The notes beneath the pieces are model-generated. The model was not told the DNA's origin and searched no databases. It was given only the letters and a program-made list of their open reading frames with translations. Positions 765 to 49,100 of a stretch of 64,000 bases of DNA are shown here, in pieces. This stretch comes from Nitrospinaceae bacterium. GTDB taxonomy: Bacteria > Nitrospinota > Nitrospinia > Nitrospinales > Nitrospinaceae. A program made the translations under genes and the position numbers. Position 1 is the first letter of the stretch, and every line of letters begins with the position of its first letter. The stretch covers positions 1 through 64,000 of the forward strand of contig JAJDBJ010000008.1 of NCBI GenBank assembly GCA_029261395.1. The letters run 5' to 3'.

Positions 765-1687
765 TTCACCCCCTTGCGGGAAGCCACACCCAGGCAAAAG
801 TGGTAGAAGATGCCGACGGCGAGGCGGCCGGTGTGCTCCTCTTCGATCAGGGGGTTGTATTCCGACAGGTCGAACAGGTCGACCTTGGGATGGGCACCGG
901 CGGCGAACGCCATTTCGAACGCCTCTTTGGCGCGCAGGCCCATGATGCCGGGGCAGGACACGCCGGGGGCATCGGAGGCACGGATCGAATCGAGATCGAA
1001 GCTGACGAACAGCGAATCGCATTCCCAAGTCAGTCGTCCCAGTGCGTTGCGGAAGGCTTGTGCCGCCGCGTCGCCACGGGATACTTCCGAATACCAGATG
1101 ATATGTGCTCCCTTGTCTTGAACGTAGCGGGCGTGCTCCCGGCTCACCTGACTGCCCTGAGCGGCGAATTCGATGAACTGCTCTCCGGCGAAGCGGGAGT
1201 CTTCCAACAGGAGGCGGAAGGGAGACCCGCTATGGGCCTGGCCGTCCTTCAGGGGACGCACGTCCAGATGCGCGTCGATATTGATCACGCCGACCGGGGT
1301 ATCCGGTTTCGAGTCGAGTAGTGCGCGGGCGTTGGGGTAGGACTGATCGTTGCCGCCACCGACTACGAAGGGGATGCCGCCTTTTTGGATGATGGATGCG
1401 GTCTGTCGGGTGAGAGCGGCATGCGATTGATCCAGAGGCAGACCGGCTGGGATGTCTCCGGCATCGGCAAGGGTGATGTTGGACAGATCGATATTCATTT
1501 CCGGGTTGTCAATGGTGCCGTAGCGCCGAATCCAGGAGCGGAACTTTTCGGGTCCGTGGCGGGCTCCGGGACGCCCTCCGTTGATCTCCACTCCGGTATC
1601 GCAGGGGAACCCGAGGAGCACTACGGTCCCCTCCTGCCCCGGTTGAATGATATCTTTCAATGTGGGGTCGTCTGTCATAATATCCAT
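761..1687 (-). CDS. hutG: Formimidoylglutamase (arginase/agmatinase family)
   Basis: Hydrolyses N-formimidoyl-glutamate to glutamate and formamide, the last step of one histidine-degradation route. It is 308 residues, a normal length for the ureohydrolase fold. Manganese-site motifs are visible: DAHLDVRP (DxHxD) near the middle and [14 protein letters not shown] (DxD) toward the end. The first metal motif, normally GGxH, reads [10 protein letters not shown], so Asn replaces the usual His ligand. It lies directly upstream of hutU with a 4-bp overlap, which supports HutG over agmatinase or arginase. The start has no obvious ribosome-binding site; MTDDP three codons downstream is an alternative. 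Confidence 0.88.
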
Positions 1688-3896: not shown

Positions 3897-4770
3897 CACC
3901 CCAACCCACCCACTGCCTGAAATTCACCGCCAGAATGTTCATCCTCATCTTAAAACTCAGATAAGTTTTTAAGGCTCTGAGACTTTTTTCTCCCAGATGC
4001 TTTTTAAAGTAATACAACTGGCTTCTGCGGTGTTCCAGCGCACTGCGTTCCCGATTGGAGCGGACACTGCCGCCGCCGACATGAATCACTTCCGCTTCGG
4101 GGGTGTAGCGCACCTGCCAGCCGGACTGACGGACGCGACGGCACAGGTCGGCGTCTTCCAGGTACATGAAGAAAGCTTCGTCCATCAATTTCACATTGAG
4201 CAGGGCCTGCCGACGCAACAGCATGCAGGCCCCCTTCACCCAGGCCACTTCTCTTTTGTGGGAATGCAGGGAACGCAAAATCCAGCCCACGGGAGGAAAA
4301 CGGCGGTTCTCCCAAAGGTTGAAGAATATTTTTCGGACTACTTCGTTCCAGATGCTCACCTCATACCCAAAGGATAGCTGAAGACTGCGATCAGGATTCA
4401 ACAGCCGGCATCCCAACAGTCCCGTTTCGGGAGACTGATTCATTTCCCTCAGCAGAGTGGCGAGGGTTTTCGGCAGGACGACGGTATCCGGGTTCAACAG
4501 TAGGATATGCCGCCCCTGCGATGAGGTGATTCCCTGGTTGCTGGCACGCGCGAACCCCAGGTTTTCCGGATTGGCGATCAAGTGCGTCTTCGGAAATTCA
4601 TTACGGATGATATCTTGCGTCCCATCCTGTGAAGCATTATCCACCACGATCACTTCATGGTCGATGCCTCCGGCGGTTTGTTGGATCGATTCCAGACAGT
4701 CGCGCACATGTCTTCGTGAATTGTAGGTGACGACGACGATGGATAATTCCAATGGATTGGGATCGGTCAT
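3826..4770 (-). CDS. Glycosyltransferase family 2 (rhamnosyltransferase-like)
   Basis: A 314-residue GT-A enzyme that probably adds a sugar to a surface polysaccharide. Visible motifs: LSIVVVTYNS at the N-terminus, VVDNASQDGT, LLLNPDTVV (the metal-binding region) and FFMYLEDADLCRRVRQSG, typical of WbbL-like enzymes. The ATG at 4770 overlaps the stop of the upstream oligopeptide-binding protein (ATGA), so I prefer it to an in-frame Met 20 codons upstream. The C-terminal 24 codons overlap the end of the heptosyltransferase gene on the other strand. Confidence 0.88.
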   Translation of the reverse strand: MTDPNPLELSIVVVTYNSRRHVRDCLESIQQTAGGIDHEVIVVDNASQDGTQDIIRNEFPKTHLIANPENLGFARASNQGITSSQGRHILLLNPDTVVLPKTLATLLREMNQSPETGLLGCRLLNPDRSLQLSFGYEVSIWNEVVRKIFFNLWENRRFPPVGWILRSLHSHKREVAWVKGACMLLRRQALLNVKLMDEAFFMYLEDADLCRRVRQSGWQVRYTPEAEVIHVGGGSVRSNRERSALEHRRSQLYYFKKHLGEKSLRALKTYLSFKMRMNILAVNFRQWVGWGATEPLAEQKQYFRKTLSLVRSFQ

Positions 4771-6392
4771 TGATTTTCTATGGAGGAAGGTTGGTTGCCG
4801 GTCAACCGGACTCGTTTCAAATACAGCCATTCCATGGCGTTGAGGCCGAGGTTCTGCACATAAGGTTTCACCAGCACATTTTGTGCGGCGACGAAAAGAG
4901 AGATGATAGCAGAGTCGGTCTCGGTCAACAAAGTTTGCGCTTCATTGTAGATGGCTTGCCGGGCCTCAAGGTCCTGCTCCGCCGCTCCCCGGGCGATCAG
5001 GTGATCGTAGCGTTCGTTTTTCCAGCGAAGACGATTGTTGCCGCTGGTGGAAATGAACAGGTTCATGAAATTGTCGGGGTCCGGGAAATCCGCTCCCCAG
5101 CCGAGGCGGAACACCGGCGGCGGATCGACATCCAGTTTTTTCAGATACACCTTCCACTCCTGATCTTCCAGGCCGACTTCAAGTCCCAGGTGTTCTTTCC
5201 ATTGGGCCTGCACGAACTGAGCGATGAGGCGGTGGGTGGGATCGGTGTTGTAAGTGATGCTGAACGGAGGAAACTTCTTGCCATCAGAGTATCCCGCTTC
5301 CGCAAGCAAAGCCTGCGCTTTTTTGGGATCGAATGCAGGACCGATTTTGGAGTTGTAGCCGAACATGCCTTTGGGAATCCAGGACGCTGTTGGCAACTCG
5401 CCCCCTTTCAAAATGACGGGAATCTGTGACCGGTTGATGGCGTGGGAAAGCGCCCGCCGCACCCGGGCATCGTTGAACGGGGCTTTGGTGACGTTGAAGC
5501 CGTAGTAGTAACCCCGAAGCAGGGGAAGATTTTTGTACTCGGCATGGGTCTTGTAATGTGGAATTGCTACCGGCGGCAGTTCCGCCATATCCAGCTCGCC
5601 TGTTTCGTACAGAGTCAGTTCCGTGGTGGGGTTGCGGATCACGTACATGATGATCCGGTTCAGTGCCGGCGGGGTGTCGTAATAGTTCGGATTCGATTGG
5701 AGCACCAGTTTGTATTCGTGGTGCCACTGGTCGAGGGTGAAAGGACCATTGGTGACGATATGCTCCGGGTCGGTCCAGTGGTCGCCGTATTGTTCGATCA
5801 CGTCCCGGCGTTGCGGAAAGGTGACCATGAAGGTGGTGAGGCTGGGGAAATAAATCACTGGCCGTTTGAGGCGCACCTGCAGAATCGTCGGGGACAGAGC
5901 CTTCACGCCCACCTGGTCGGCATCCTTAATTTTACCGGCGTTGTACTCGGCGGCATTTTCGACATCGAACAGGAAATAGGCGTACTGGGAAGCGGTATCG
6001 GGATTGAGCAGGCGTATCCAGGCATACACGAATTGCTGGGCGGTCACCGGTTGACCGTCGGTCCACTTCACGTCGTCGCGCAGATAAAAGGTAATCACAC
6101 GCCCGCCTTCAGAAAATTCCCAACGTCTGGCGATGGCGGGGATGGGCTCCAGTCGCTCGTTGTATTGTGTCAGCCCCTCCATGATATTGGTCAGCACGTT
6201 GAAGGACACGCCATCGGTCGCCAGGGACCAGTCGAGAGTGGGCGGTTCGGTGGTCACGGCGATGCGCAGGGTCTTGCTTTCCAACGCTGAGGGTTCGCCG
6301 GAACAGCTGGTCATCCACAAGGCGCTTGCCAGGGCCAAAATCCCCAGGCCCAGGCCGAAGAGGGGTTTGCCGATATTCGGGATTGTTTTCAT
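4767..6392 (-). CDS. Oligopeptide ABC transporter substrate-binding lipoprotein (OppA/DppA type)
   Basis: A 541-residue extracytoplasmic solute-binding protein of family 5. It begins with a hydrophobic signal and a lipobox ending at Cys30 (WMTSC), so it should be lipid-anchored. Family features include LDWSLATDGVSFNVLTNIMEGL, TFYLRDDVKWTDGQPVTAQ (residues about 90-110), the AWIRLLNPDTASQYAY segment and VRRALSHAINRS. It should deliver oligopeptides to an inner-membrane permease, but no permease or ATPase gene adjoins it here. It overlaps the downstream GT2 gene by 4 bp. A start 6 codons upstream (MISLGT) is also possible. Confidence 0.88.
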   Translation of the reverse strand: MKTIPNIGKPLFGLGLGILALASALWMTSCSGEPSALESKTLRIAVTTEPPTLDWSLATDGVSFNVLTNIMEGLTQYNERLEPIPAIARRWEFSEGGRVITFYLRDDVKWTDGQPVTAQQFVYAWIRLLNPDTASQYAYFLFDVENAAEYNAGKIKDADQVGVKALSPTILQVRLKRPVIYFPSLTTFMVTFPQRRDVIEQYGDHWTDPEHIVTNGPFTLDQWHHEYKLVLQSNPNYYDTPPALNRIIMYVIRNPTTELTLYETGELDMAELPPVAIPHYKTHAEYKNLPLLRGYYYGFNVTKAPFNDARVRRALSHAINRSQIPVILKGGELPTASWIPKGMFGYNSKIGPAFDPKKAQALLAEAGYSDGKKFPPFSITYNTDPTHRLIAQFVQAQWKEHLGLEVGLEDQEWKVYLKKLDVDPPPVFRLGWGADFPDPDNFMNLFISTSGNNRLRWKNERYDHLIARGAAEQDLEARQAIYNEAQTLLTETDSAIISLFVAAQNVLVKPYVQNLGLNAMEWLYLKRVRLTGNQPSSIENQ

Positions 6393-6512
6393 TGTGCCCA
6401 AGGATATCATTGACTTGGGTGAGGCCCAACCGGGTTTTAGGATATTGAACTAATTGCTTTACTTTTTCATGGGACTCGATAGAATTAACGCTTTCCCAAT
6501 TTTCGAGCGATT

Positions 6513-9495: not shown

Positions 9496-11316
9496 TCAGG
9501 CAATCGCCAGAAAATTACAGGCCTGGTAGCAGGCGTTGCAGTTGATGCACAGGTCCATATCGATGTGGGCCGCGACTTTTTTGGTGCCGCCGGTGATCGC
9601 GCCAGTAGGGCAGGGTTTGATGCACGCGCCACACGCAACGCAATCGTCCTCTTTCACCACATACTTGTACAGACCGGTACACATGGCCGCATCGCACACC
9701 TGGTCGACAATGTGCCGTTCGTATTCTTTCCGGAAATACTTGAGTCCGGTCAATACGGATTTGACAGCCGTCTCACCCAGGCCGCACAGCGAGGTTATGT
9801 TGATTTCTTCGCACATTCCCTGAAGCTTATCCAGGTATTCGATTTTACCGCGGCCTTCGGCGATATCGTCCAGCATGTTTTTAATCAGAGTGAGGCCGAT
9901 TCTGCAGGGGGTGCATTTGCCGCAGGTTTCCGCTTCGTTGAAGCCGATGGAGAATCGCGTCAGGTCGATCACGCAGGCCGATGCGTCGTAGGCCGATAGA
10001 CTGGCCTGGCCCATGATAGCACCGGCTTCGATCAGGCTTTCGTAATCTGTTTTGACGTCGATGTTATCCGGAGGCAGAAATCCGCCGGTCACGCCGCCGA
10101 TATGGACTACCTTCAATTCTTTTTTCTTAACGATGCCGCCACAGTAATCTTCGACGATCTCGCGGACCGTGGTGTTCATGTCGAACTCCATGAGGCCGCT
10201 GTATTTGATGTTGCCCGCCAGCGCCCACACTTTGCATCCGTGTGCGTTGTCCGGTCCCATGTTGAGATACCAATCGGCACCTTTACTGATAATGAAAGGC
10301 ACTGTCGCATAGGTTTCGGCGTTGTTGAGACTGGTCGGATAACCGAACAACCCTTTCTCGGATGAATGCGGAGGCTGGGCTTTCGGGAACGGCCGCTTGC
10401 CTTCGACGGAGGCCATCAACGCGGTTGACTCACCGCCGATGAACGCTTCCATGCCTTCATGCACGTAACAGTCGATGCTGAAGTCGGACCCCATAATGTT
10501 GTTGCCGAGGAACCCGCGTTCGCGCGCCGATTCCAGCGCCTTGTTGAGCCGGCGCACCGCGATGGAGTAATCAGAGCGGGTGTAGATAATTGCGTCGGTC
10601 GCCTGGATAGCGTAGGCGGCGATCAGAAGCCCTTCCAGAACCTGATGCGTACTGCCTTCCATGACACTGCGGTCCATGTAAGATGCGGGGTTGCCTTCGT
10701 CGCCGTTGACCATGATGTAGCGTTTCTCGGCCTGTACGCTGGCGGCCTTCTCCCATTTTTCACCCGTGATAAAACCGCCGCCGCCCTTGCCGCGCAGGTT
10801 GGATTTTTTCACTTCGGCGATGACTTCCGCCGGCTTCATGGTCAACGCTTTCTTGAGCGCTTCGTAACCGCCGACTGCGATATATTCGTCGATGTTTTCG
10901 GGATCGATGTTGCCGCCGTGTGCCAGTGCCACGCGCGTTTGCTTCTCAAGCTTTTCGTAATAGTCCGGCTTGGCCGCACCCTTGGCAACGGGCTTGCCAC
11001 CGATGATGTGATCCTTCATGATTTTGGCAACCATGTCCGGCTTGACGCGTTCATAGGTGACGCGCGGCTGGCCGGGAATATAGATGTCCACTAATACGTC
11101 GCGACTGCAATAACCACGGCAACCGACCTGGCCCAGCGAGCAACCGCCTTTTTCCATGATTTCGGCGGCGGCGTGGTTCTCTTCGATCTGTTTCTCGAAT
11201 TCTTCGTAGACCGCTTCCGCACCCTCTGCGATACCGCTCAGGCTTTTGCAAACGGTGATCTTCACCGTTTCTTTTTTCGTGCTCGAGGCTTGGGCCTGTT
11301 CCGCCACAGCTTCCAT
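9496..11316 (-). CDS. NuoF-like FMN/iron-sulfur oxidoreductase with C-terminal 2[4Fe-4S] domain
   Basis: A 606-residue protein related to the 51-kDa subunit of complex I and to HndC/HydB-type subunits. Order: thioredoxin-like 2Fe-2S domain (residues 15-90; Cys 23, 59, 66, 70), flavin domain with LRGKGGGGFITGEKW and NGDEGNPASYMDR, SLBB-like region, a NuoF-type 4Fe-4S binding region (CGKCTPCRIG with CGLGE) and two ferredoxin motifs at the C-terminus (CVACGACIKPCP, CINCNACYQACN). Both nucleotide/FMN motifs differ from the classical GRGGAGFPTG and DEGEPGT forms. It stands alone, without NuoE, NuoG or hydrogenase genes. Probably passes electrons between NAD(P)H and a ferredoxin-like carrier; substrate uncertain. 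The start has an AGGAG site. Confidence 0.85.
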   Translation of the reverse strand: MEAVAEQAQASSTKKETVKITVCKSLSGIAEGAEAVYEEFEKQIEENHAAAEIMEKGGCSLGQVGCRGYCSRDVLVDIYIPGQPRVTYERVKPDMVAKIMKDHIIGGKPVAKGAAKPDYYEKLEKQTRVALAHGGNIDPENIDEYIAVGGYEALKKALTMKPAEVIAEVKKSNLRGKGGGGFITGEKWEKAASVQAEKRYIMVNGDEGNPASYMDRSVMEGSTHQVLEGLLIAAYAIQATDAIIYTRSDYSIAVRRLNKALESARERGFLGNNIMGSDFSIDCYVHEGMEAFIGGESTALMASVEGKRPFPKAQPPHSSEKGLFGYPTSLNNAETYATVPFIISKGADWYLNMGPDNAHGCKVWALAGNIKYSGLMEFDMNTTVREIVEDYCGGIVKKKELKVVHIGGVTGGFLPPDNIDVKTDYESLIEAGAIMGQASLSAYDASACVIDLTRFSIGFNEAETCGKCTPCRIGLTLIKNMLDDIAEGRGKIEYLDKLQGMCEEINITSLCGLGETAVKSVLTGLKYFRKEYERHIVDQVCDAAMCTGLYKYVVKEDDCVACGACIKPCPTGAITGGTKKVAAHIDMDLCINCNACYQACNFLAIA

Positions 11317-13157: not shown

Positions 13158-13199
13158 ATCTTGCCCTGTTAAAACGACAACCCTTTTTGGAGCGAATTG

Positions 13200-14975
<1,776 letters not shown>

Positions 14976-15008
14976 CAAGCCATGTATTCAATGAATGAGG
15001 AGTCTCCC

Positions 15009-16727
15009 ATGGTGGCATTACCGGAGTTAAAAAAACCTATGCCTACAAACCGCTTCAAGGATCAGGAGTCGGAAAATATCGTATTTGATTGCGGATGGGG
15101 CCGTTTGATTTTTGGGAACACCTTTGATGATCCGGAACAACTGGTGGACGCACTTCGGAATGAACAGCGCGGAAAGCGCAATATCGTGATTTATTCCAGT
15201 GAGCCGCACGTGGCTTTATCCATCGCCCCGCAGGAAGTTTTTTTGGATCCTTCCCACCATTTCCGCCTGCTGAAAGAAAACTACAAACCCGGTCCCAAAC
15301 GGAGAGAGGGTTTTTGTATTCGAAGTTTTGATGCTCGTCGGGATATTGACCGCATGAACCAAATTTATCAATCCCGGGACATGGTGTTGGTCGATCCTTC
15401 GTACCTGCGCGAAATGGAAAACCAGGGAAAGATGTCCCTGTTCGTTGCCGAAGACACCAAAACCGGGAAAATCTTGGGAGTCATTACCTGTCTGGATCAC
15501 GAAAAAATTTACAGGGATAAGCAAAAAGGGGTCAGTTTATGGGCGCTGGCAGTGGACCCGCAGGCGATTCAACCTGGTATCGGGGAACTTTTGCTTCGTC
15601 ACAGTGCAGAGCACTTTTTCAGGGCCGGACGTGAATTTATCGATTTATCCGTTTTACATGATAACGATCAGGCCATTGGGCTTTATCAAAAACTGGGTTT
15701 CCACAAAGTCTCCTTCTTTTTTATAAAGCATAAAAGCGCGATCAATGAAAAGTTGTATACCGGACTCATTCCCGAGAACCTCTTGAACCCCTATGCCATG
15801 ATTATCATCAATGAAGCTCGCCGAAGGGGCATTGCCACGGAAATACTGGATGACGAGCTCAATCTGTTCAGCCTTTCCTTTGGGGGACGCACCATCCGTT
15901 GCAGAGAATCCTTGAGCGAATTAACCAGTTCCATTGCTCTGCAGATATGCTCGGACAAGGCTTTGACTCAGAAGGTTCTTCAAGATAATGGATTAAAGGT
16001 TCCGAGACAGATGATTGTCTCGACCCCGGAACACAATGTGGAATTTCTCAACAAATACCGTCGGATCGTGGTAAAGCCTGCACAAGGAGAGCAGGGCGTC
16101 GGGGTCAGTGTTGATCTTTCCAATCCGGAAGAAGTGGAGCTGGCCGTGGAACGGGCGAGAAAGGTGAGCGAAACGGTTTTGCTGGAGGAGTTTGTTGCAG
16201 GCAGGGATTTGAGGGTTTTGGTGATTAACAACGAGGTGGTCGCCGCGGCTTTTCGTCAGCCTGCGCAAATAAAAGGGAATGGCGTTTTTACCATCAGGGA
16301 GTTAATTGAAAAGCAAAGCCGTCGGCGGCAAAGTGCAACCGGAGGGGAAAGCTCTATTCCTTTGGATGAGGAAACCCTGCGGTGTATCCAGGCCGCGGGG
16401 TACACTCTGGATTCCATCATTGGCGTCGGAGAACGATTGAACGTTAGAAAAACGGCAAATCTTCATACCGGAGGAACCATACATGATGTGACGGACCAAC
16501 TGCACCCCGAACTGGCCCAGGCCTGTCTGCAAGCGGCACAGGCCCTCCAAATTCCAGTCGTGGGGATTGATTTGATCATTGTTGATGATCAAAAACTCAA
16601 ATATAAAATCATCGAGGCTAATGAGCGGCCGGGGCTGGCCAATCATGAACCTCATCCGACCGCCGAACGATTTATTGATTTGCTGTTTCCCCAGACCAAG
16701 GTTCAAAATAAATTGGAATACCTCTAG
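15009..16727 (+). CDS. ngg: N-acetylglutaminylglutamine synthetase (GNAT/ATP-grasp fusion)
   Basis: A 572-residue fusion that should acetylate glutamine and ligate a second glutamine to build the NAGGN dipeptide. Residues 20-90 hold the family-specific CGWGRLIFGNTF block; 95-240 are a GNAT domain (LWALAVDPQAIQPGIGELLL, DLSVLHDNDQAIGLYQKLGF); 290-565 are an ATP-grasp domain like that of cyanophycin/glutathione synthetases (VVKPAQGEQGVGVSV, LHTGGTIHDVTD, EANERPGLANHEPHPTAERF). Start at 15009 follows a GAGGAG site and matches the usual family N-terminal length; ATGs at 14982 and 14991 are in frame. It is 33 bp behind the amidotransferase gene. Confidence 0.92.
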   Translation: MVALPELKKPMPTNRFKDQESENIVFDCGWGRLIFGNTFDDPEQLVDALRNEQRGKRNIVIYSSEPHVALSIAPQEVFLDPSHHFRLLKENYKPGPKRREGFCIRSFDARRDIDRMNQIYQSRDMVLVDPSYLREMENQGKMSLFVAEDTKTGKILGVITCLDHEKIYRDKQKGVSLWALAVDPQAIQPGIGELLLRHSAEHFFRAGREFIDLSVLHDNDQAIGLYQKLGFHKVSFFFIKHKSAINEKLYTGLIPENLLNPYAMIIINEARRRGIATEILDDELNLFSLSFGGRTIRCRESLSELTSSIALQICSDKALTQKVLQDNGLKVPRQMIVSTPEHNVEFLNKYRRIVVKPAQGEQGVGVSVDLSNPEEVELAVERARKVSETVLLEEFVAGRDLRVLVINNEVVAAAFRQPAQIKGNGVFTIRELIEKQSRRRQSATGGESSIPLDEETLRCIQAAGYTLDSIIGVGERLNVRKTANLHTGGTIHDVTDQLHPELAQACLQAAQALQIPVVGIDLIIVDDQKLKYKIIEANERPGLANHEPHPTAERFIDLLFPQTKVQNKLEYL

Positions 16728-16755
16728 ACAAGTTTAAAAAAATGATAGGAACTTT

Positions 16756-17862
16756 ATGATCTCTCTGCCATTCAATATCCATTACACCCGGAATTTGCTC
16801 TTAGAGTTGTTGAATATTCCGAGCCCCACAGGCTATACAGATACCATTGTTCATCGGGTTTGCCAGGAATTGACCGCCCTTAAAATTCCTCATGAATTGA
16901 CCCGCCGAGGGGCCATTCGCGCCGATCTCAAAGGGGACCAGGCAAGCCCGGACCGGGCGATTGTGGCTCATCTGGATACTCTGGGTGTCATGGTTAAGAA
17001 TTTGAAGTCCAACGGTCGGTTGGAGATTGTTCCTATTGGGTCTTGGTCATCTCGCTTCGCCGAGGGAGCCCGGGTAACGGTTTTCTGTGACCAGGATAAA
17101 AGTTACCGGGGCACCATTCTCCCGGGTAAATCTTCTGGCCATACTTTTAACACTGAAATTGATACTCAGCCGGTCGCCTGGGAAAACGTAGAAGTTCGGG
17201 TCGATGCCCTCGCCAATAATAAATCGGATTTGGAACAGTTGGGAATTAACGTGGGTGATACGATTGCCTGCGACCCGGTTCCGGAAATAACCGACACCGA
17301 TTATATCAATTCCCGTTATCTAGATGATAAAGCGGGAGTGGCGGCCATTTTTGGGGCCGCTAAAGCGGTGATGGAAGGTGACGTGCGATTGCCCGTGGAT
17401 TGCCATCTGCTTTTCACGATATCTGAAGAGGTGGGGGTGGGGGCGTCTCACATTTTGCATGGTGATGTGGCGGAACTGGTTTCCGTGGATAATGCGACGC
17501 TGGCAAACGGGCAAAACAGCAGTGAACTGGGGGTCACCGTTGCCATGCAGGATTCCAGTGGCCCTTTTGACCGCCATCTGGCTCACAAGTTGATCGACTT
17601 ATGCCGGGAACACGATATTGAACATGCGCGTGACGTTTTTAAATTTTACCGGAGTGATGCCGCCTCCGCGATGGAAGCCGGCAACGATATCCGAACCGGC
17701 CTGCTGGGCTTCGGACTCGATGCTTCGCATGGCTATGAGCGGGTTCATCTGAAATCTTTGGAAGCTTTGGGAAAGTTGCTCACCCTGTATTTCCAAAGTC
17801 CGCCCACCTTCAAACGGGACCGTCATTTATTGGGTTCTTTGAAAGATTTCCCAATAGAATAA
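16756..17862 (+). CDS. M42-family peptidase-like hydrolase of the NAGGN cluster
   Basis: A 368-residue dinuclear-metal hydrolase related to PepA/FrvX aminopeptidases (TIGR03106 type). Metal-site motifs: VAHLDTLG (His, Asp), RYLDDKAGVAAIFG (bridging Asp), TISEEVGVGASH (catalytic and ligand Glu) and a His in GLDASHGYERVH. It starts 28 bp after the ligase gene behind AGGA. It is the third member of the conserved trio, where it may trim or recycle the dipeptide; that role is inferred. It is the last gene of the cluster, followed by a convergent gene. Confidence 0.88.
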   Translation: MISLPFNIHYTRNLLLELLNIPSPTGYTDTIVHRVCQELTALKIPHELTRRGAIRADLKGDQASPDRAIVAHLDTLGVMVKNLKSNGRLEIVPIGSWSSRFAEGARVTVFCDQDKSYRGTILPGKSSGHTFNTEIDTQPVAWENVEVRVDALANNKSDLEQLGINVGDTIACDPVPEITDTDYINSRYLDDKAGVAAIFGAAKAVMEGDVRLPVDCHLLFTISEEVGVGASHILHGDVAELVSVDNATLANGQNSSELGVTVAMQDSSGPFDRHLAHKLIDLCREHDIEHARDVFKFYRSDAASAMEAGNDIRTGLLGFGLDASHGYERVHLKSLEALGKLLTLYFQSPPTFKRDRHLLGSLKDFPIE

Positions 17863-22712: not shown

Positions 22713-24236
22713 ATGATCAAAACATCCGTTAAATTTGACGACGTTCTCAAACATAAAACCGATTGCCTCATTTTACTCAGTCTGGAGACCAAACCGGCAG
22801 GTCTTCTGAAACAAATCGACGGCCTGCTGAATGGCGCGATAACTGCCGCGTTCAAGTCCAAACGCTTCGAGGGCAAACTCAACCAGACTTTCCAGCAAAG
22901 CGTGCGCGGGTTGATAGGCGCGGATTCGATACTTGTCGTAGGTCTGGGCAAATCAAAAGACGTTACGGAAGAGCAAATCCGACAGGCATCCGGCACCGGT
23001 TCCAAAGCGGCTGAAAAATCACGCCACCACAAAATTTCCATTTTCCTGAACGAGGAGGATGCGGGTAAGCTCGCAAAATCCAAAAAATCCCAAACGGGCA
23101 GTCCCGTGGCCGCGGCATTGGTGGAGGGGGCTCAGCTCGGATTGTACCATTTCGACCCATACAAGAGCCTGGACAAGAAGGACCCGCCTTCTCGTATCAA
23201 GGAGATCGTTGTTCTCGCCTCTTCCAAATCCAAAGTGAAGGATTATCAGGCGGGCGTGGGTCAGGCGGAGAAGCTGTGCGAGGCGGTGATGGCCACACGC
23301 GATCTCATGCATCATCCCAGCAACACGGCCACACCGACGTTTTTGGCGAAAGCCGCACAGACGATGGCGCGCAAGCACAAGATCACCTGCAAGATCCTTG
23401 AGAAAAAGGACATGGTCAAACTCAAGATGGGGGCACTACTGGGCGTGGCCAAGGGCAGTCACGAGCCGCCCAAGTTCATCGTCATGGAATACAAAGGCGG
23501 TAAGCCGAAAGACAAGCCGGTGGTGATTGTCGGCAAGGGCGTCACGTTTGATACTGGCGGCATCTCCTTGAAAGGCGGTGCGGGTATGGATGAGATGAAG
23601 TTCGACATGTCCGGCGGCGCGGTGACCATCGGCACCCTGCAAGCGGTGGCCAGTCTGAAGCTGAAGGTCAATGTCGTCGGTATCGTTCCCGCGACCGAAA
23701 ATATGCCGGGAGGTTCGGCCATCAAGCCGGGGGATATCCTCACCGCGTCCAACGGAAAGACCATCGAAGTGTTGAACACCGATGCCGAAGGACGCTTGAT
23801 CCTTGCCGATGCTCTGGTGTACGCGCAACGCTACAAACCGAAAGTGTTGATCGATTTGGCTACCCTGACCGGTGCGGTGATCTCGGCATTGGGGCATCAA
23901 GCCGCGGCGGCCATCGGTACGGATCAGAAACTGATTGGAAAATTGATCGAAAGTGGAGATGCCACCGGCGAGCGGTTGTGGCAACTCCCGTTGTACGAAG
24001 AGTTTGAGAAGGCCACGAAGAGCGACATCGCCGATCTCAAAAATATCACCTCCGGTGGTGTTGGAGCGGGTACGATCACTGGCGCGGCATTTCTGAAACC
24101 GTTCACCGGAGATTTTCCCTGGGCGCATCTCGATATCGCCGGGACCGCCTGGACCTCCGATGAAAAACCGTATGTTCCCAAAGGTGGGTCCGCCTACGGT
24201 GTGCGCCTGCTCATCGACTACCTGAAAAACCTCTGA
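22713..24236 (+). CDS. pepA: Leucyl aminopeptidase, M17 family
   Basis: A 507-residue cytoplasmic zinc/manganese aminopeptidase that removes N-terminal residues from peptides; usually hexameric. The catalytic domain has GKGVTFDTGGISLKGGAGMD, EMKFDMSGGA and the family signature NTDAEGRLILADAL, with SGGVGAGTITGAAFLKPFTG near the end. The N-terminal macro-like domain (residues 1-160) is more divergent, as usual. The next gene starts 3 bp after the stop, so the two are likely co-transcribed. It fits the peptide-use theme of the window. Confidence 0.95.
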   Translation: MIKTSVKFDDVLKHKTDCLILLSLETKPAGLLKQIDGLLNGAITAAFKSKRFEGKLNQTFQQSVRGLIGADSILVVGLGKSKDVTEEQIRQASGTGSKAAEKSRHHKISIFLNEEDAGKLAKSKKSQTGSPVAAALVEGAQLGLYHFDPYKSLDKKDPPSRIKEIVVLASSKSKVKDYQAGVGQAEKLCEAVMATRDLMHHPSNTATPTFLAKAAQTMARKHKITCKILEKKDMVKLKMGALLGVAKGSHEPPKFIVMEYKGGKPKDKPVVIVGKGVTFDTGGISLKGGAGMDEMKFDMSGGAVTIGTLQAVASLKLKVNVVGIVPATENMPGGSAIKPGDILTASNGKTIEVLNTDAEGRLILADALVYAQRYKPKVLIDLATLTGAVISALGHQAAAAIGTDQKLIGKLIESGDATGERLWQLPLYEEFEKATKSDIADLKNITSGGVGAGTITGAAFLKPFTGDFPWAHLDIAGTAWTSDEKPYVPKGGSAYGVRLLIDYLKNL

Positions 24237-42762: not shown

Positions 42763-43869
42763 TTAAACATTCGCGTTACGGCCCATCGCCGCATCAATCG
42801 GTTCGCGCGCCATGTCCAAAGCCGCCTTGTGCGGAACGATCTTTTCCTCACGAACGCGTCTAAGCACTTCCCGCGTGTTGCGTCCGATGGTTTCGCGAAT
42901 GGTGGCAAACGCATCATCCGCCGTCAAGCCCTGATACTCCGTGGCGGCACATATCACTCCTCCGGAATTGGCGATGATGTCGGGAATGATCCAGACCCCC
43001 CGGACATGCAGTTTTTCAGCCGCTTCACGGGTGATCGGAATATTCGCACCCTCCAGCACCAGCTGGGTGTTCAACAGGTGTTGGTTCAACATCGTGAATA
43101 CATCCGGCCTTGCGGCGGGGATGAAGATCTCCGTTTCCAGGGACAGCACGGCATCCCGCTCCAGCGCTTCACCCAACCGGGAATCCGCAACTTTTCCTCC
43201 AGTATTAACGAATTGAATCAGGGAGGGAATATCAATCCCGGCGGAATCATACAGAGCTCCTTTGGAATCATTAACGGCAATCACTTTAACGCCCCGTTCC
43301 AGCAGGAATTTCGCCGTCGCTTTGCCGACATTGCCGAATCCCTGGATGATCACACGCGCGTCCTTGAGCGGCAAGCCGATGGCATCACTGGCGACATCCG
43401 CCGCCATCGCTACGCCGTAACCGGTCATGCCCAACTCGTCCAGCGGCAGGCCTCCGAGCAGTCGCGGCAGGCCGACGGCGCGTCCGATTTCTTCATGCAC
43501 CCAGGCCATGCTCTGCTCGTCGGTTCCCATATCCGGACCCGGGATGTAACCCTTGATATCCCGGATGGACCGCGCAAACGTTCGCACCAGAGATTCCTTG
43601 TCGGGTGATCGCGGGTCTGCAAGGATGCCGGACTTGGCACCGCCATGCTTCAACCCGTTCACGGCATTCTTCAGCGTCATCGCGCGCGCCAGTCGGAACA
43701 CCTCGCGTGTGCTGACGTCCGGCGCCATGCGTGTACCGCCGATAGCGGGTCCCAGAACGAGGTTGTCGATTACGACAATAGCGCGCAACTGGGTTTTAGG
43801 ATCGTATATATGAGTGATTTGTTGCGGGCCGAATTCATCGGCGAAATTATCCATGTATTGAGTATACAT
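42763..43869 (-). CDS. Glu/Leu/Phe/Val-type amino-acid dehydrogenase
   Basis: A 368-residue NAD(P)+-dependent enzyme that oxidatively deaminates an amino acid to a 2-oxoacid, or the reverse. Motifs: GPAIGGTRMAP, catalytic-Lys region LKNAVNGLKHGGAKSGI, IPGPDMGTDE, Rossmann VIIQGFGNVGKATAKFLLE and ANIPITREAAEKL. Length suits leucine dehydrogenases (about 365) better than typical glutamate dehydrogenases (410-450), but substrate choice cannot be read with certainty. Start follows an AAGGGGGGTGAG site, 18 bp after the acyl-CoA synthetase, and it is the last gene of the operon. It would supply or consume the 2-oxoacid used by the oxidoreductase. Confidence 0.88.
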   Translation of the reverse strand: MYTQYMDNFADEFGPQQITHIYDPKTQLRAIVVIDNLVLGPAIGGTRMAPDVSTREVFRLARAMTLKNAVNGLKHGGAKSGILADPRSPDKESLVRTFARSIRDIKGYIPGPDMGTDEQSMAWVHEEIGRAVGLPRLLGGLPLDELGMTGYGVAMAADVASDAIGLPLKDARVIIQGFGNVGKATAKFLLERGVKVIAVNDSKGALYDSAGIDIPSLIQFVNTGGKVADSRLGEALERDAVLSLETEIFIPAARPDVFTMLNQHLLNTQLVLEGANIPITREAAEKLHVRGVWIIPDIIANSGGVICAATEYQGLTADDAFATIRETIGRNTREVLRRVREEKIVPHKAALDMAREPIDAAMGRNANV

Positions 43870-43887
43870 GTCCTCACCCCCCTTGCA

Positions 43888-46014
43888 TCAAAGTGGAACC
43901 TGCGTGATTTTGGCGTCCAGAACCACCAAGTCTTTTTCGTATAGCCGGACCGGATTAAAATCCAGCGACAGAATATCGGGTTCGGAGACCATCCAGTGCG
44001 CGACCCACTTCATAAAAGCCAAGAGTTTTTGGGAGTCGAGCTTGGGTTTTCCGCGAAACCCCTGAATGATTTTCCATGCCTTCGTTCTTTGGACTCCTCC
44101 TGAAATTTCTGTATTCGTAGCGGGAAGCACCAGCCGCGCGATGTCTTGATACAGTTCGACGTAACTGCCGCCGGTTCCGAACAGAAGTACCGGACCGAAT
44201 TGAGGGTCGCGGTGGCCCCCCACCATTAAGTCGAGACCCGGCGGCATTTGCTGTTCCGCCCACACCTGTCCCGGCCAATCCTTGTAAAAAGCCTCCCACT
44301 GGCGAAGCAAACTTTTTTCGTCATTCAAATCGAGTTGGATCCCTTTCATCTCGGTTTTGTGTTGGATGTCCGGTCCCACCGCCTTCAACGCCACAGGAAA
44401 CCCGATCTCAGCGACTGCCCGGTGAATATCCTCTTCGCTGTTGACATGAAGGTGCCGGGGGACTGAAATGTCACATTGCCTCAGCAGATTTTTGATCTGC
44501 ATTTCATGCGGATTTTGATCCATGGACCGCAACCAGAGCCGGGCCGGTAAAGTGTCGAATGCTGTCTGAGTTTCATTCTCCGGTTGCCCGGTCACCCACC
44601 GGGATTGCCGTGCCAACAGCTCCAGACCGTGCGCCGCACGCTCGCCCGTGGCAAATATCGAAATACCACTGCCCTGCAGAACGGAATTCAATTCACCATA
44701 CAGTGAACCGTAAGCGCCGACCGTTACCGACAGGTTTTCCGGCAACCGGGATTTCAGCATCGGGCCGATGTCGGCAGTGATGCCTTCCGTGCCCGGTAAC
44801 AACACCAGTAGCAGTGCGTCGTATTCACCGGTCTTCAGCAAATACTCGATTATGGATACGCATTGTTCGTTGGTGCCGGAACCGGTCAGATCAATGGGAT
44901 TGCGGAACGAATAATAAGAAGGGTACAGCTCCTTCAGAGCGAGTTGAAACTTTTGAGACGGTTCAGGAACCCGGAGCCCCGCCTGCTCGCACATATCGGT
45001 CAGCATCACTCCCATGCCGCCGCCGTTGGAGACCACCAGGGTGCGGTCGCCTCCGGCTTTCGGTTGATCGCTGAACAATTGCAGAGCATCGACCATTTGC
45101 TCCAAACCATTCACTTCGATCAGCCCGGTCTGTTCGCACGCCGCCTTGAAGACGGAATACGATCCTGCCAGCGAAGCGGAATGGGCGAGAGCCGCTTGTC
45201 GGCCTCTTTCGGCTTTACCCCCTTTGAAGACGATAATGGGTTTACTGCGGGCGATGGTCCGTGCCGTTTCCATGAACCGGGGCCCGTCCTGCACGCTTTC
45301 CAGGTACAGTCCAATAACGCGCACTTGCGGATCACGTGCGAACTCTGCGAGCAGTTCGCATTCGCCAATGTCGATGCGGTTGCCGAAATTGACTGCACGG
45401 TGGACGCCTACCCCCAATCCACCGAGATGACCCAGCATCTGCATCAGAAACGCCCCGCTCTGCGAGATAAAAGCGACCGAACCGGGTTGTGGTAATGTCA
45501 GTTCTTCCGGTTTCAAAAAGAAACTGTTGAATCGATCCGGCGCACTGAACACTCCCATCCCGTTGGGACCGATGATGCGGATGCCAAGCTGTTGCGCTTC
45601 ATCGCGAATCTGATGTTGCAGAATTTCTCCGGCTTCGCCCGTTTCTGAAAACCCGCCACTGATGATGATCAGGTGGTGGATCCCTTTGGCCGCCAGCGGT
45701 TTAAGGAGGGGTAAGACTTTTGAAGATGAAACCGCGACCACCGCGAGATCCACCGTTTTGGGTAAATGTTGAATATCTTTCACCACCGGGCAATCGGCCA
45801 CGGCATGTCCTGAAGGATGAACCGTTGTAATCGTCCCGCCGTATTTTTGGTGCAACAGATTTTGAACGATATATTTCCCCAGGTTCCCTTGTTTGGGCGA
45901 AGCACCGATGACCGCCACCGACCGGGGAGCAAAAAAAGGACGCAAATCCAATCGTTCACCTTTGGCATTTGGATGAGAGCGTTCATTGATTTCTTTCACA
46001 AGAAGTTCACTCAT
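43888..46014 (-). CDS. ADP(NDP)-forming acyl-CoA synthetase, fused alpha-beta form
   Basis: A 708-residue enzyme interconverting acyl-CoA + ADP + Pi and acid + CoA + ATP. Order: CoA-binding domain (RSVAVIGASPKQGNLGKYI), succinyl-CoA-ligase-like domains with GPNGMGVFS and the phospho-His segment AALAHSASLAGSYSVFK, then a C-terminal ATP-grasp domain (FPVALKAVGPDIQHKTEMKG, VGGHRDPQFGPVLLFGTGGS). The start at 46014 overlaps the beta-subunit stop by 8 bp. In archaea this enzyme makes ATP at the end of 2-oxoacid fermentation; its operon position after the oxidoreductase supports that coupling. Acyl specificity unknown. Confidence 0.9.
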   Translation of the reverse strand: MSELLVKEINERSHPNAKGERLDLRPFFAPRSVAVIGASPKQGNLGKYIVQNLLHQKYGGTITTVHPSGHAVADCPVVKDIQHLPKTVDLAVVAVSSSKVLPLLKPLAAKGIHHLIIISGGFSETGEAGEILQHQIRDEAQQLGIRIIGPNGMGVFSAPDRFNSFFLKPEELTLPQPGSVAFISQSGAFLMQMLGHLGGLGVGVHRAVNFGNRIDIGECELLAEFARDPQVRVIGLYLESVQDGPRFMETARTIARSKPIIVFKGGKAERGRQAALAHSASLAGSYSVFKAACEQTGLIEVNGLEQMVDALQLFSDQPKAGGDRTLVVSNGGGMGVMLTDMCEQAGLRVPEPSQKFQLALKELYPSYYSFRNPIDLTGSGTNEQCVSIIEYLLKTGEYDALLLVLLPGTEGITADIGPMLKSRLPENLSVTVGAYGSLYGELNSVLQGSGISIFATGERAAHGLELLARQSRWVTGQPENETQTAFDTLPARLWLRSMDQNPHEMQIKNLLRQCDISVPRHLHVNSEEDIHRAVAEIGFPVALKAVGPDIQHKTEMKGIQLDLNDEKSLLRQWEAFYKDWPGQVWAEQQMPPGLDLMVGGHRDPQFGPVLLFGTGGSYVELYQDIARLVLPATNTEISGGVQRTKAWKIIQGFRGKPKLDSQKLLAFMKWVAHWMVSEPDILSLDFNPVRLYEKDLVVLDAKITQVPL

Positions 46015-46960
46015 CGTACTGCTCCCAGTAAGCATCCACGTTACTCTGAATTTGGGCGATGATGTCGTCGCGCCGTTTCGGAGCAAACAGGTGTTGGAAC
46101 CGTTTTTGACGCTCCAGATATTTCTCAACCGGCAGGCGTTTGCGCGGCCGTTTCGTATGAATGACTTTGCCGTCCACAAACTCCTTGATCGGAAAGATGC
46201 CGGTATCGACCGCCAGTTTGGCGATGAGGTGCGTGTCTTTCGGATCGAATCCCCAACCGGTCGGGCAGGGCGACAGGCAGATGAACAGCCGCGGTCCCTT
46301 CATACCCTTTGCTTTTTTAAATTTGTTGGACAGGTCGATCGGCTCGCGCGGCGATACCGTGGCCAGGTACGGCGGATTGTGCGCCATCCAGATGCCGAAC
46401 AGATCCTTCTTGGTTTGCTCGGAACCCGCCGGGTGTTCCGGCGTGTTCGGGCTGGTCATCGTGTAACTACCCAAAGGGGACGCCCCGGAATGTTGGAACC
46501 CGGTATTGCCGTACGCCTCGTTGTCGTAGCAAAAGTAAATGAAATCGAGGTTGCGATGAATCGCCGCCGAAGTGGGGCTGAGCCCCATATCGTTTGTAGA
46601 GCCGTCCCCCGCCACCACGATAACCTGTAGATCTTCCGCTTTAGGCAGTCCGTGTTTTTGCATGCGGATGTCCAACGCGTCGCGCACCCCTTGCGCCGCC
46701 GGCACCGGACCGCTCATGGTCGTATACAACCACGATCCCTTCAGTGGCGTGAACGGGTAGACGGAGATCAGCGTGAAGCATCCCGCCGCATTACACGTCA
46801 ACGTATTTTCTCCCAGGACTTTCATGGCGAGACGCATCCCTTCCAGACCGCCGCACCCGGCGCACAGAGCGGAACCCGGTGCGATCTCCTCTTCAGGGTT
46901 CAAGTCGGTAACCTTTTTATATTTGGATTCCTCAAGGGAATCAGAAATGGTGGCTTTCAT
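46007..46960 (-). CDS. porB: 2-oxoacid:ferredoxin oxidoreductase, beta subunit
   Basis: A 317-residue thiamine-diphosphate-binding subunit of a pyruvate- or branched-chain 2-oxoacid:ferredoxin oxidoreductase. Motifs: ALCAGCGGLEGMRLA (cluster-ligand Cys), AAGCFTLI, the ThDP motif VVAGDGSTNDMGLSPTSAAI and YDNEAYGNTGFQHSGASPLG; later CPTGWGFDP. Start overlaps the alpha-subunit stop by 4 bp. It should bind the proximal [4Fe-4S] cluster through its N-terminal Cys pair and a Cys in the middle of the chain. Confidence 0.93.
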   Translation of the reverse strand: MKATISDSLEESKYKKVTDLNPEEEIAPGSALCAGCGGLEGMRLAMKVLGENTLTCNAAGCFTLISVYPFTPLKGSWLYTTMSGPVPAAQGVRDALDIRMQKHGLPKAEDLQVIVVAGDGSTNDMGLSPTSAAIHRNLDFIYFCYDNEAYGNTGFQHSGASPLGSYTMTSPNTPEHPAGSEQTKKDLFGIWMAHNPPYLATVSPREPIDLSNKFKKAKGMKGPRLFICLSPCPTGWGFDPKDTHLIAKLAVDTGIFPIKEFVDGKVIHTKRPRKRLPVEKYLERQKRFQHLFAPKRRDDIIAQIQSNVDAYWEQYDE

Positions 46961-48201
46961 GGAATGCGAGCCTCCCTGGGAAATCCGGCGATTTGCCGGA
47001 GTTGATCGAACTGCTTGAGATCCTTTTCGTCAAACAGGAACAGCGGGTCATCGCCGGGTGCCTCATCCAATCGTTGCAGGATGCTGATAAAATCCCCTTC
47101 CTGAATATCCCGGCCACCCAAACCGCCAATCACTGAAAGCAGATGTTGCGGACGGTCTTCCCGCCGGTACACCGCTTTCAATATTTCCGGATAGAGGATG
47201 CCTCCCATGCCCGGCGCCAGATTCTGATCAATCACTGCAACTTTGGGCCGATGGGCCAGGGCGTCGGCAATGATCTGGGACGGGAACGGTCGCAGAAGGC
47301 TCAGTTTGAGCAGGCCGGCTTTGATGCCGTTCTTGCGCAGATGCTGTACCGCCGCTTTGCCCTTGGTGGCAAAGGAGTTGCTCATGACGAAGACATATTC
47401 CGCGTCGTCCAGCCGGTAGCGCTCCACCGCATCGTAAAAGCGTCCAAACCGTTCGCCGAATTCCTGAGTGATTTTTTGGTAAACATTCACCACATTTTGC
47501 GCGGCCAGGTGATGCTGAATTTTGAAATAGGAATAATTGCCGCCGCCGAATACCGCCGATGCCCGCGCCATGGGCTCGGAAGCCTGGAACACTGGTTGTG
47601 ACGGTTTGAATAGCGGCAGAAATTCTCTCACTTCGGCTTCATCCGGCAACACCACCGGTTCGCGGGTGAAGGACAGATAGAACCCGTCCAGGTTGACCAG
47701 CACCGGCAGGCAGACTTCCGGGTCTTCCGCGATGCGGTAGGCCATCAAGATATAGTCGAGAACTTCCTGCGCGGTTTCCGCGTGCAATTGAATGATTCCG
47801 GTGTCGCGCAGACTCAGAACGTCATTATGATCCGGCTCCAGCGTAATCGGAGTCGCCAGCGCGCGCGATACGTTGACCAGCACCAGCGGCACGCGCCACC
47901 CGGCAATGGTGTGCAGAGCCTCCAATCCATATAAAATTCCCTGGCTTGAGGAAGCGGTGAACACACGCACCCCGGAAGCGGCCGCCGCACCCGCCGCCAT
48001 GAACATCGAATGCTCCGAGTCCATGTTGGTGTACTTGCCGTGCATGTGGCCATCGGCAAACCATTGCGCCAGGGTTTCGACGATTTCGGTTTGCGGGGTG
48101 ATGGGGAACGCCGGTACATAATCGACACCTGCCAGCCGAGCGCCCCAAGCCGCCGCTTTATTTCCGGTTAACATGATTTGTTTATTGCGGGTCAGTTCCA
48201 T
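46957..48201 (-). CDS. porA: 2-oxoacid:ferredoxin oxidoreductase, alpha subunit
   Basis: A 414-residue alpha subunit with the pyrimidine-binding and transketolase-C-like domains. Motifs: GNKAAAWGARLAGVDYVPAF then PITPQTEIVETLA, NMDSEHSMFMAAGAAAASG, VFTASSSQGILYGLEAL and the end domain GIKAGLLKLSLLRPFPSQII, IGGLGGRD. PITPQT plus this architecture is shared by archaeal pyruvate and isovalerate enzymes, so substrate class is open. GGAGG precedes the ATG, and the gene overlaps the gamma-delta gene by 10 bp and the beta gene by 4 bp. Confidence 0.93.
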   Translation of the reverse strand: MELTRNKQIMLTGNKAAAWGARLAGVDYVPAFPITPQTEIVETLAQWFADGHMHGKYTNMDSEHSMFMAAGAAAASGVRVFTASSSQGILYGLEALHTIAGWRVPLVLVNVSRALATPITLEPDHNDVLSLRDTGIIQLHAETAQEVLDYILMAYRIAEDPEVCLPVLVNLDGFYLSFTREPVVLPDEAEVREFLPLFKPSQPVFQASEPMARASAVFGGGNYSYFKIQHHLAAQNVVNVYQKITQEFGERFGRFYDAVERYRLDDAEYVFVMSNSFATKGKAAVQHLRKNGIKAGLLKLSLLRPFPSQIIADALAHRPKVAVIDQNLAPGMGGILYPEILKAVYRREDRPQHLLSVIGGLGGRDIQEGDFISILQRLDEAPGDDPLFLFDEKDLKQFDQLRQIAGFPREARIP

Positions 48202-49100
48202 GATTCCACCTCCCGGAGTATTTCAATAGCGTGCTTGGGACACTCCGTTGCACAAATCAGGCATCCTTTGCAGTGGTCGTAATCAATCACCGGTTTATCG
48301 TTGGTATCCATCCGAATGTCTCCTTCCGGGCACCGGGCATAACAAATGGCGCATCCGTTGCACTCCTCGTAATTAATCACCGGGCGATGTGTCCGCCAAT
48401 TACCGGTCTTGCGCAGGGCCATGTTGCCTGTGGCAAAAATAAGCGGAGCCGAATCGACCGGGGGACGACGCTCCAACGTCACTAACCGGCTGGCCGAGAA
48501 CCCCGCATCGGACTCGCTGAACTCCAGGTCAAACGAAGGCGCTTTCTGAAAGACCTCCTCGGCCAGTTTAAGATTGGCGGCAATTTTTTCGGGCCCGAGA
48601 CGTCCTTGCCCCAACTCCTCCCGAATCGCCTGAAGCAGATGATGCAGGTCAATACGGCCCATCAGGCGCGCACCCACCGCAGCCAGAGCCGTGCTGAGAA
48701 TCATCGGTTTCTGGATGTACTTCTGGCACAGCTCGGAAATATCCAACTGAACCGGAAGAGACTCCAACTGGTAATGCTGTTTGAGATCGTGCGATGTATG
48801 CCGGGAATTGATAAAGATGAGTGTGGAGGCATCCGTGCCTTGGGTGACTGCGGCCATGGGGTCGGACAGCAACGTCTCATCGCCGATCAAAACGATATCC
48901 GGCTGAGCAATAGGTCCCCGCTCCAACACGATATTTTTACTGAACCGCGCATACGCGGCGATTGGGGCTCCCCTTCGCTCCGCTCCATACAAGGGGAAAT
49001 CCTGAGCCTGATACCCGGCCAAGTGCGCCGCCGTACCCAAAATCTGGCTGGCGGTTTTGATCCCCTGTCCCCCGCGGCCATGAAGTCGTATCCGTAACAT
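48192..49100 (-). CDS. porG: 2-oxoacid:ferredoxin oxidoreductase, fused gamma-delta subunit
   Basis: A 302-residue fusion. Residues 1-185 are the gamma domain (RLHGRGGQGIKTASQILGTA, PLYGAERRGAPIAAYARFS). The C-terminal 75 residues are a two-cluster ferredoxin delta domain: CNGCAICYARCPEGDI and CKGCLICATECPKHAI. Many organisms encode these parts separately. It is the first gene of a five-gene operon and has a strong AAGGAGG site. Electrons from the 2-oxoacid would leave by this subunit to ferredoxin. Confidence 0.93.
   Translation of the reverse strand: MLRIRLHGRGGQGIKTASQILGTAAHLAGYQAQDFPLYGAERRGAPIAAYARFSKNIVLERGPIAQPDIVLIGDETLLSDPMAAVTQGTDASTLIFINSRHTSHDLKQHYQLESLPVQLDISELCQKYIQKPMILSTALAAVGARLMGRIDLHHLLQAIREELGQGRLGPEKIAANLKLAEEVFQKAPSFDLEFSESDAGFSASRLVTLERRPPVDSAPLIFATGNMALRKTGNWRTHRPVINYEECNGCAICYARCPEGDIRMDTNDKPVIDYDHCKGCLICATECPKHAIEILREVESWN

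Follow-up and report, generated by a model that had tools for sequence, protein, structure and literature searches.

In the amino-acid fermentation of Pyrococcus furiosus and other Thermococcales, the oxidoreductases POR, VOR, IOR and KGOR convert 2-oxoacids to acyl-CoA with reduction of ferredoxin, and ADP-forming acyl-CoA synthetases (ACS) then conserve energy by releasing the acid with formation of ATP (PMC3942289). The 2-oxoacids stem from transamination, and each step is divided among several isoenzymes of the 2-oxoacid:ferredoxin oxidoreductases (KORs) and of ACS (PMC3942289). A window of 64,000 nucleotides from a Nitrospinaceae bacterium (the whole stretch of DNA analyzed here, positions 1 to 64,000 of contig JAJDBJ010000008.1, assembly GCA_029261395.1) contains a five-gene operon that encodes candidates for the same two steps. 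It differs from the archaeal systems in being a single bacterial operon with a dedicated hydrophobic-pocket dehydrogenase, one oxidoreductase with fused gamma and delta subunits and one synthetase with fused alpha and beta parts. The chemistry as such is already known from archaea; new are its arrangement in one operon with a hydrophobic-pocket dehydrogenase of its own, its presence in Nitrospinota and its frequent location in a genomic island. In the literature covered, which excluded subscription papers, we found no description of such a module in Nitrospinota. The main texts of the Nitrospina gracilis and Nitrospinota genome papers, searched for these terms, mention neither an ADP-forming synthetase nor a branched-chain oxidoreductase, and the words fermentation and branched-chain are absent from the main text of a 2024 Nitrospinota comparison (PMC10839748). 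N. gracilis has been described as an obligate autotroph with five-subunit POR and OGOR and a group-3b hydrogenase of unclear role; glycogen fermentation has also been suggested (PMC3578206).

We see an even chance that the operon works as one module that converts an amino acid, probably a branched-chain one, via the 2-oxoacid and the acyl-CoA to the free acid and ATP, running in the fermentative direction at low oxygen. The dehydrogenase, presumably NAD-linked, would deaminate probably valine, isoleucine or leucine, the four-subunit oxidoreductase would decarboxylate the resulting 2-oxoacid to acyl-CoA and reduce ferredoxin, and the synthetase would form the free acid and ATP. The module would most likely run this way when oxygen is scarce and could provide ATP without respiration. 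Ferredoxin and NADH may be re-oxidized via Nfn and group-3b hydrogenase in many relatives, and via other ferredoxin users, e.g. the two other 2-oxoacid:ferredoxin oxidoreductases, in the organism from which the window stems. The exact substrate, the direction and the conditions of use are what we infer from the comparisons below. An earlier note on this DNA, made from its letters, had proposed the three-step route and the linkage of the genes, both of which hold up; the branched-chain substrate it favored is supported by genomic context only, and the oxidoreductase itself has higher scores with pyruvate synthase models than with those for VOR.

The five open reading frames (ORFs) lie on the minus strand exactly where the earlier note had placed them, to the base (Table 1), and recomputation returned the same overlaps of 10 bp between gamma-delta and alpha, 4 bp between alpha and beta and 8 bp between beta and synthetase, as well as the 18-bp gap between synthetase and dehydrogenase. 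Domain searches agree with the proposed families. Each of the five starts is preceded by a G-rich Shine-Dalgarno sequence, the best being AAAGGAGG ahead of the gamma-delta gene; the synthetase start at 46014 is backed by an upstream GGGAG and is preferred over a longer ORF from 46179. A divergent intergenic region of 581 bp lies upstream of the operon and a convergent gene for a TPR protein downstream. Promoter and terminator scans returned no more sites than scans of shuffled sequences.

Table 1. Genes of the operon, listed in the direction of transcription, with positions in the window
Feature	Position	Strand	Remarks
Fused gamma-delta subunit, 2-oxoacid:ferredoxin oxidoreductase	48192..49100	-	302 aa, P0005; POR gamma domain and two [4Fe-4S] clusters
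Alpha subunit, 2-oxoacid:ferredoxin oxidoreductase	46957..48201	-	414 aa, P0004; POR_N and PFOR_II (Pfam)
Beta subunit, 2-oxoacid:ferredoxin oxidoreductase	46007..46960	-	317 aa, P0003; TPP (TPP_enzyme_C) and proximal [4Fe-4S]
Acyl-CoA synthetase, ADP(NDP)-forming, fused alpha-beta	43888..46014	-	708 aa, P0002; CoA_binding/CoA_binding_2, Succ_CoA_lig, ATP-grasp_5
ELFV-family amino-acid dehydrogenase, predicted hydrophobic non-glutamate pocket	42763..43869	-	368 aa, P0001; PF00208/PF02812

The window belongs to a 2.94-Mb draft genome that is 97% complete, and its named close relatives (loci L070-L095) are Nitrospinota. The remark in the earlier note that this layout would be notable in a respiratory Gram-negative is thus apt for a host from this phylum. 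A search for the nitrite oxidoreductase subunit NxrA with a type-II DMSO-reductase model yielded no frame of NxrA size in the draft genome and frames of 944-1158 aa in three close relatives. A beta orthologue with at least 70% identity occurs in 28 of 61 genomes from the order Nitrospinales and nearer kin, and the order gamma-delta, alpha, beta, synthetase, dehydrogenase is identical in all 27 relatives' loci, within the limits of the contigs. As the Nitrospinota alpha and beta sequences also form one clade (SH-aLRT 100), the linkage is not due to chance. Outside the nearest kin the synthetase is only 44-57% identical and the genes flanking the operon differ between relatives while the order persists, which argues for maintenance of the linkage by selection.

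The gamma-delta protein scores above the cut-offs of TIGR02175 (PorC_KorC, 122 bits) and TIGR02179 (PorD_KorD, 90 bits) in hidden Markov model searches, and all eight cluster cysteines of its delta part are invariant among 69 homologues. Alignment identifies alpha Thr35 and Arg132 as the equivalents of PFOR Thr31 and Arg114, and beta residues C33, C36, C61, C232, D119 and N152 are invariant among 82 homologues. The counterparts of PFOR Thr31, Arg114 and Asn996 and the thiamine pyrophosphate (TPP) motif are present and do not vary wherever homologues cover them; the choice of these catalytically important residues rests on established knowledge of the enzyme families. With alpha, beta, gamma and delta domains, the TPP motif and three [4Fe-4S] clusters, the enzyme belongs to the four-subunit POR/VOR type. 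Oxalate oxidoreductase was rejected, as the alpha subunit reads FPITP where 5C4I has YPIRP with its arginine, and each of the 70 homologues that extend over this position has threonine. The equivalog cut-offs are reached neither for pyruvate synthase (alpha, PorA_Arch, 355 of 550 bits; beta, PorB, 251 of 405 bits) nor for VOR acting on 2-ketoisovalerate (VorA, 265 of 646 bits; VOR-type beta, 227 of 405 bits). Archaeal PorA and PorB are the top-scoring models, ahead of other PORs and VOR, and none of the scores comes near its cut-off.

These rankings, together with the synthetase scoring with acetate--CoA ligase models, leave room for a pathway centered on pyruvate, either from alanine via pyruvate and acetyl-CoA to acetate and ATP or with the oxidoreductase as a second, oxygen-sensitive pyruvate synthase that fixes CO2 at low oxygen. 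A precedent may be seen in Nitrospira marina, in which a four-subunit POR-like complex encoded by a third such cluster rises strongly at low oxygen (PMC8115632). By its description it resembles the Nitrospinota enzyme as an additional four-subunit oxidoreductase of a nitrite oxidizer, and it is a candidate member of the family; however, the N. marina cluster is reported to be absent from most Nitrospira (PMC8115632), whereas the family of the operon oxidoreductase is present in many. In Nitrospira loci L097-L142, among them that of Ca. Nitrospira defluvii (L110), this family occurs without the dehydrogenase, and in many of these loci a distant acyl-CoA synthetase-like gene (about 30%) resides a few kb off on the opposite strand. 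A pyruvate-centered pathway nevertheless appears quite unlikely to us, as the alpha and beta scores fall so far short of the pyruvate-synthase cut-offs, the dehydrogenase is a member of the ELFV family and not an alanine dehydrogenase, and the genome already possesses two other oxidoreductases.

The latter two (contigs C65 and C17) are of the CO2-fixation type and homologous to the five-subunit POR and OGOR of the reductive tricarboxylic acid (rTCA) cycle in Hydrogenobacter, Nitrospira and Nitrospina. They belong to the same superfamily as the operon enzyme but share only 30-32% identity with its beta subunit, have a gamma subunit that is not fused to delta and show no link to a synthetase or dehydrogenase of the operon type. 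In view of these separate paralogues, a role of the operon enzyme as pyruvate or 2-oxoglutarate synthase of the rTCA cycle was rejected; it is not needed for CO2 fixation. The alpha gene of one CO2-fixation-type enzyme appears to be split across contig ends (C8 87912-88148 and C65 16-957), and the operon is therefore probably located about 40 kb from that cluster. In the sister genome G005 both oxidoreductases are encoded on contig C37, with the beta genes at 10.0 and 46.3 kb.

The synthetase has the CoA-binding, ligase and ATP-grasp domains and both catalytic histidines expected of an ADP-forming acyl-CoA synthetase (ACD) and is predicted to be one. H278 is kept in 42 of 42 homologues and H552 in all 40 that reach it. 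The closest solved structures are those of ADP-forming 3-hydroxypropionate- and 4-hydroxybutyrate-CoA ligases and of ACD alpha/beta.

In the dehydrogenase, the lysine that binds the glutamate side chain in solved glutamate dehydrogenases (GDHs) is replaced by Ile43 (GPAIGG instead of GPAKGG) and the corresponding serine by Ala308 (SGGVICA instead of AGGVTVS), while the catalytic residues K67, K79 and D113 are retained. The operon homologues inspected have isoleucine, leucine or valine at the first site and alanine at the second wherever the sites are covered. We take these sites to correspond to Lys89 and Ser380 of the Clostridium symbiosum GDH and to Leu40 and Val294 of leucine dehydrogenase. 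The canonical GDH of the same genome (L035) keeps both lysine and serine, and an identity of the operon enzyme as GDH was rejected. Its predicted structure (pLDDT 87) matches GDHs best (TM about 0.85), on which basis we regard it as a GDH-type scaffold that carries a predicted hydrophobic pocket. It is like leucine and phenylalanine dehydrogenases of the ELFV family in size (368 aa) and in the hydrophobic residues at the two sites but nearer to hexameric GDH in sequence and fold. Judged by its residues, the putative pocket is compatible with leucine/valine dehydrogenase activity. According to the earlier note, grouping with carbon-fixing pyruvate synthases and biosynthetic GDHs would speak against fermentation; the distance of beta from the CO2-fixation-type paralogues and the loss of both glutamate-binding residues next to a separate GDH give no sign of such a grouping. 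A second ELFV dehydrogenase of the genome (L034; L040:6823-8091, contig C29; 422 aa) likewise lacks the GDH lysine and serine and has leucine and cysteine there.

It is also conceivable that the pocket is enlarged and accommodates phenylalanine, methionine or several amino acids with hydrophobic side chains, the module then yielding phenylacetate or similar products. G111 and A308 are smaller than the leucine dehydrogenase residues at what we assume to be the Ala113 and Val294 sites. However, aromatic 2-oxoacids are usually substrates of the IOR family, to which the operon oxidoreductase does not belong, and we hold such a range to be very improbable.

Related gene sets in other phyla bear on the substrate. 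In ANME-1 (L136), ilvB, ilvH and ilvC directly precede the homologous genes, after which come a split ADP-forming synthetase and the dehydrogenase. The oxidoreductase homologues of anammox bacteria (L132, L137) also adjoin an ADP-forming synthetase that is split. An adjacent dehydrogenase and an AMP-forming acyl-CoA synthetase are found in Gammaproteobacteria (L126), Desulfurivibrionaceae (L143), a proteobacterial metagenome-assembled genome (L119), Verrucomicrobiales (L148) and Methanococcoides (L127). The synthetases of the last two have MbcS as best family, below its cut-off, and 3ETC as best solved relative, both as distant matches. MbcS of Staphylococcus aureus activates 2-methylbutyrate and isobutyrate (PMC10026030), and 3ETC is MacsMa, which prefers 2-methylbutyrate (PMC10455477). 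As the relatives either follow ilvBHC or adjoin synthetases closest to 2-methylbutyrate enzymes, branched-chain substrates are, by analogy, most likely for the operon as well; given that the matches are distant and below the MbcS cut-off, this specificity is the best inference and not a fact. The partner synthetases, indicative of short branched acids, also speak against pyruvate and against aromatic substrates.

The AMP-forming versions suggest assimilatory use in those phyla, as in the assimilation of branched acids by methanogens; the Nitrospinota operon has an unrelated ADP-forming synthetase instead. In principle each of the three steps is reversible, and the operon could thus serve to activate branched short-chain acids from outside at the expense of ATP, to carboxylate them reductively with reduced ferredoxin and to aminate the products to valine, isoleucine or leucine, a route known from rumen methanogens for 2-methylbutyrate and isovalerate. 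The AMP-forming partners, which drive activation, the position of the pair beside ilvBHC in ANME-1, the availability of reduced ferredoxin in a host with the rTCA cycle and the role of branched acids as isoleucine and leucine precursors in methanogens (PMC10658910) are all in line with this direction. On the other hand, ADP-forming synthetases usually make ATP in amino-acid fermenters (PMC3942289), and the route would not be needed: citramalate synthase is encoded in 29 of 29 genomes checked and IlvE is above cut-off in 26, both are present in the genome of the window, and branched-chain biosynthesis genes occur whether or not a genome has the operon. A necessity of the operon for branched-chain amino-acid biosynthesis was rejected on these grounds, and with the flanking island of the relatives being fermentative in character, we judge assimilation rather unlikely.

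Among 22 long loci from relatives, 14 have genes for NfnAB, formate-tetrahydrofolate (THF) ligase, carbamate kinase or group-3b hydrogenase flanking the operon. The order of the island is NfnAB, formate-THF ligase, PrsW, TPR, operon, cytidylate-kinase-like, a protein presumably resembling cyclic 2,3-diphosphoglycerate synthetase, carbamate kinase and HydB-cNMP-HydG-HydD-HydA for the hydrogenase. Several of these genes can contribute to making ATP or disposing of reductant. The island is order-wide (L168-L174, L043-L067) and occurs with or without the operon. The operon co-occurs with group-3b hydrogenase (Fisher p 2.5e-6 for 61 genomes, 0.0015 for the 28 good genomes) and with carbamate kinase (p 1e-4 and 0.0015, respectively) in tests that ignore shared ancestry and assembly gaps. 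The ADP-forming synthetase, the presence of biosynthesis genes in any case and the island in relatives together favor the oxidative, ATP-forming direction at low oxygen.

This limit of the co-occurrence tests is one of several points that weigh against a fermentative branched-chain module. The oxidoreductase scores higher with archaeal PorA/PorB than with VOR, and the dehydrogenase resembles GDH more than leucine dehydrogenase, both in fold and in overall sequence. In five relatives (L168-L172) the island lacks the operon at this position; the operon thus behaves as a cassette. Group-3b hydrogenase and Nfn were not found in the genome of the window or its two closest relatives, so that reduced ferredoxin must go elsewhere in this lineage, and the carbamate kinase of these three (contig C12 in the genome of the window) lies away from the operon. 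The direction that the earlier note had left open is consequently favored by the island in relatives and not by the host itself, which lacks hydrogenase and Nfn and has citramalate synthase and IlvE. To our knowledge, no enzyme from the clade of the operon has been assayed. Cultured Nitrospina have been reported not to grow heterotrophically (PMC3578206).

Elsewhere in the window, genes for an OppA-like oligopeptide-binding protein (4767-6410, minus strand), an M17 leucyl aminopeptidase (22713-24236, plus strand) and an arginase/agmatinase-family protein (761-1687, minus strand) are of note as a possible peptide and amino-acid supply. A NuoF-like protein of 606 aa (9496-11316, minus strand), which has an additional N-terminal portion and [4Fe-4S] domains at its C-terminus, is encoded next to a LysR regulator and is a possible NADH:ferredoxin partner. 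Consecutive genes for asparagine-synthase-like, GNAT/ATP-grasp and M42 peptidase proteins (13197-17862, plus strand) make up what we take to be an N-acetylglutaminylglutamine amide osmolyte cluster.

The main nitrite oxidizers of the sea, Nitrospina-type bacteria, are also encountered in anoxic sediments and oxygen-minimum zones, where their mode of energy conservation is not agreed upon. The operon is a concrete candidate for anoxic energy conservation, potentially providing ATP from amino acids, and often resides beside hydrogenase and Nfn. The joining of one oxidoreductase-dehydrogenase pair to two unrelated synthetases, ADP- or AMP-forming, across phyla offers a natural comparison for how the direction of a pathway is set. 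Tentatively, and with considerable doubt, we propose that Nitrospinota including marine nitrite-oxidizer lineages carry a complete ATP-yielding amino-acid fermentation module, often in an anoxic-survival island with Nfn, formate-THF ligase, carbamate kinase and group-3b hydrogenase, with which supposed obligate autotrophic respirers could ferment amino acids in oxygen-minimum waters and sediments. If true, these supposedly strict respirers would gain an as yet undescribed, amino-acid-based way of life at low oxygen.

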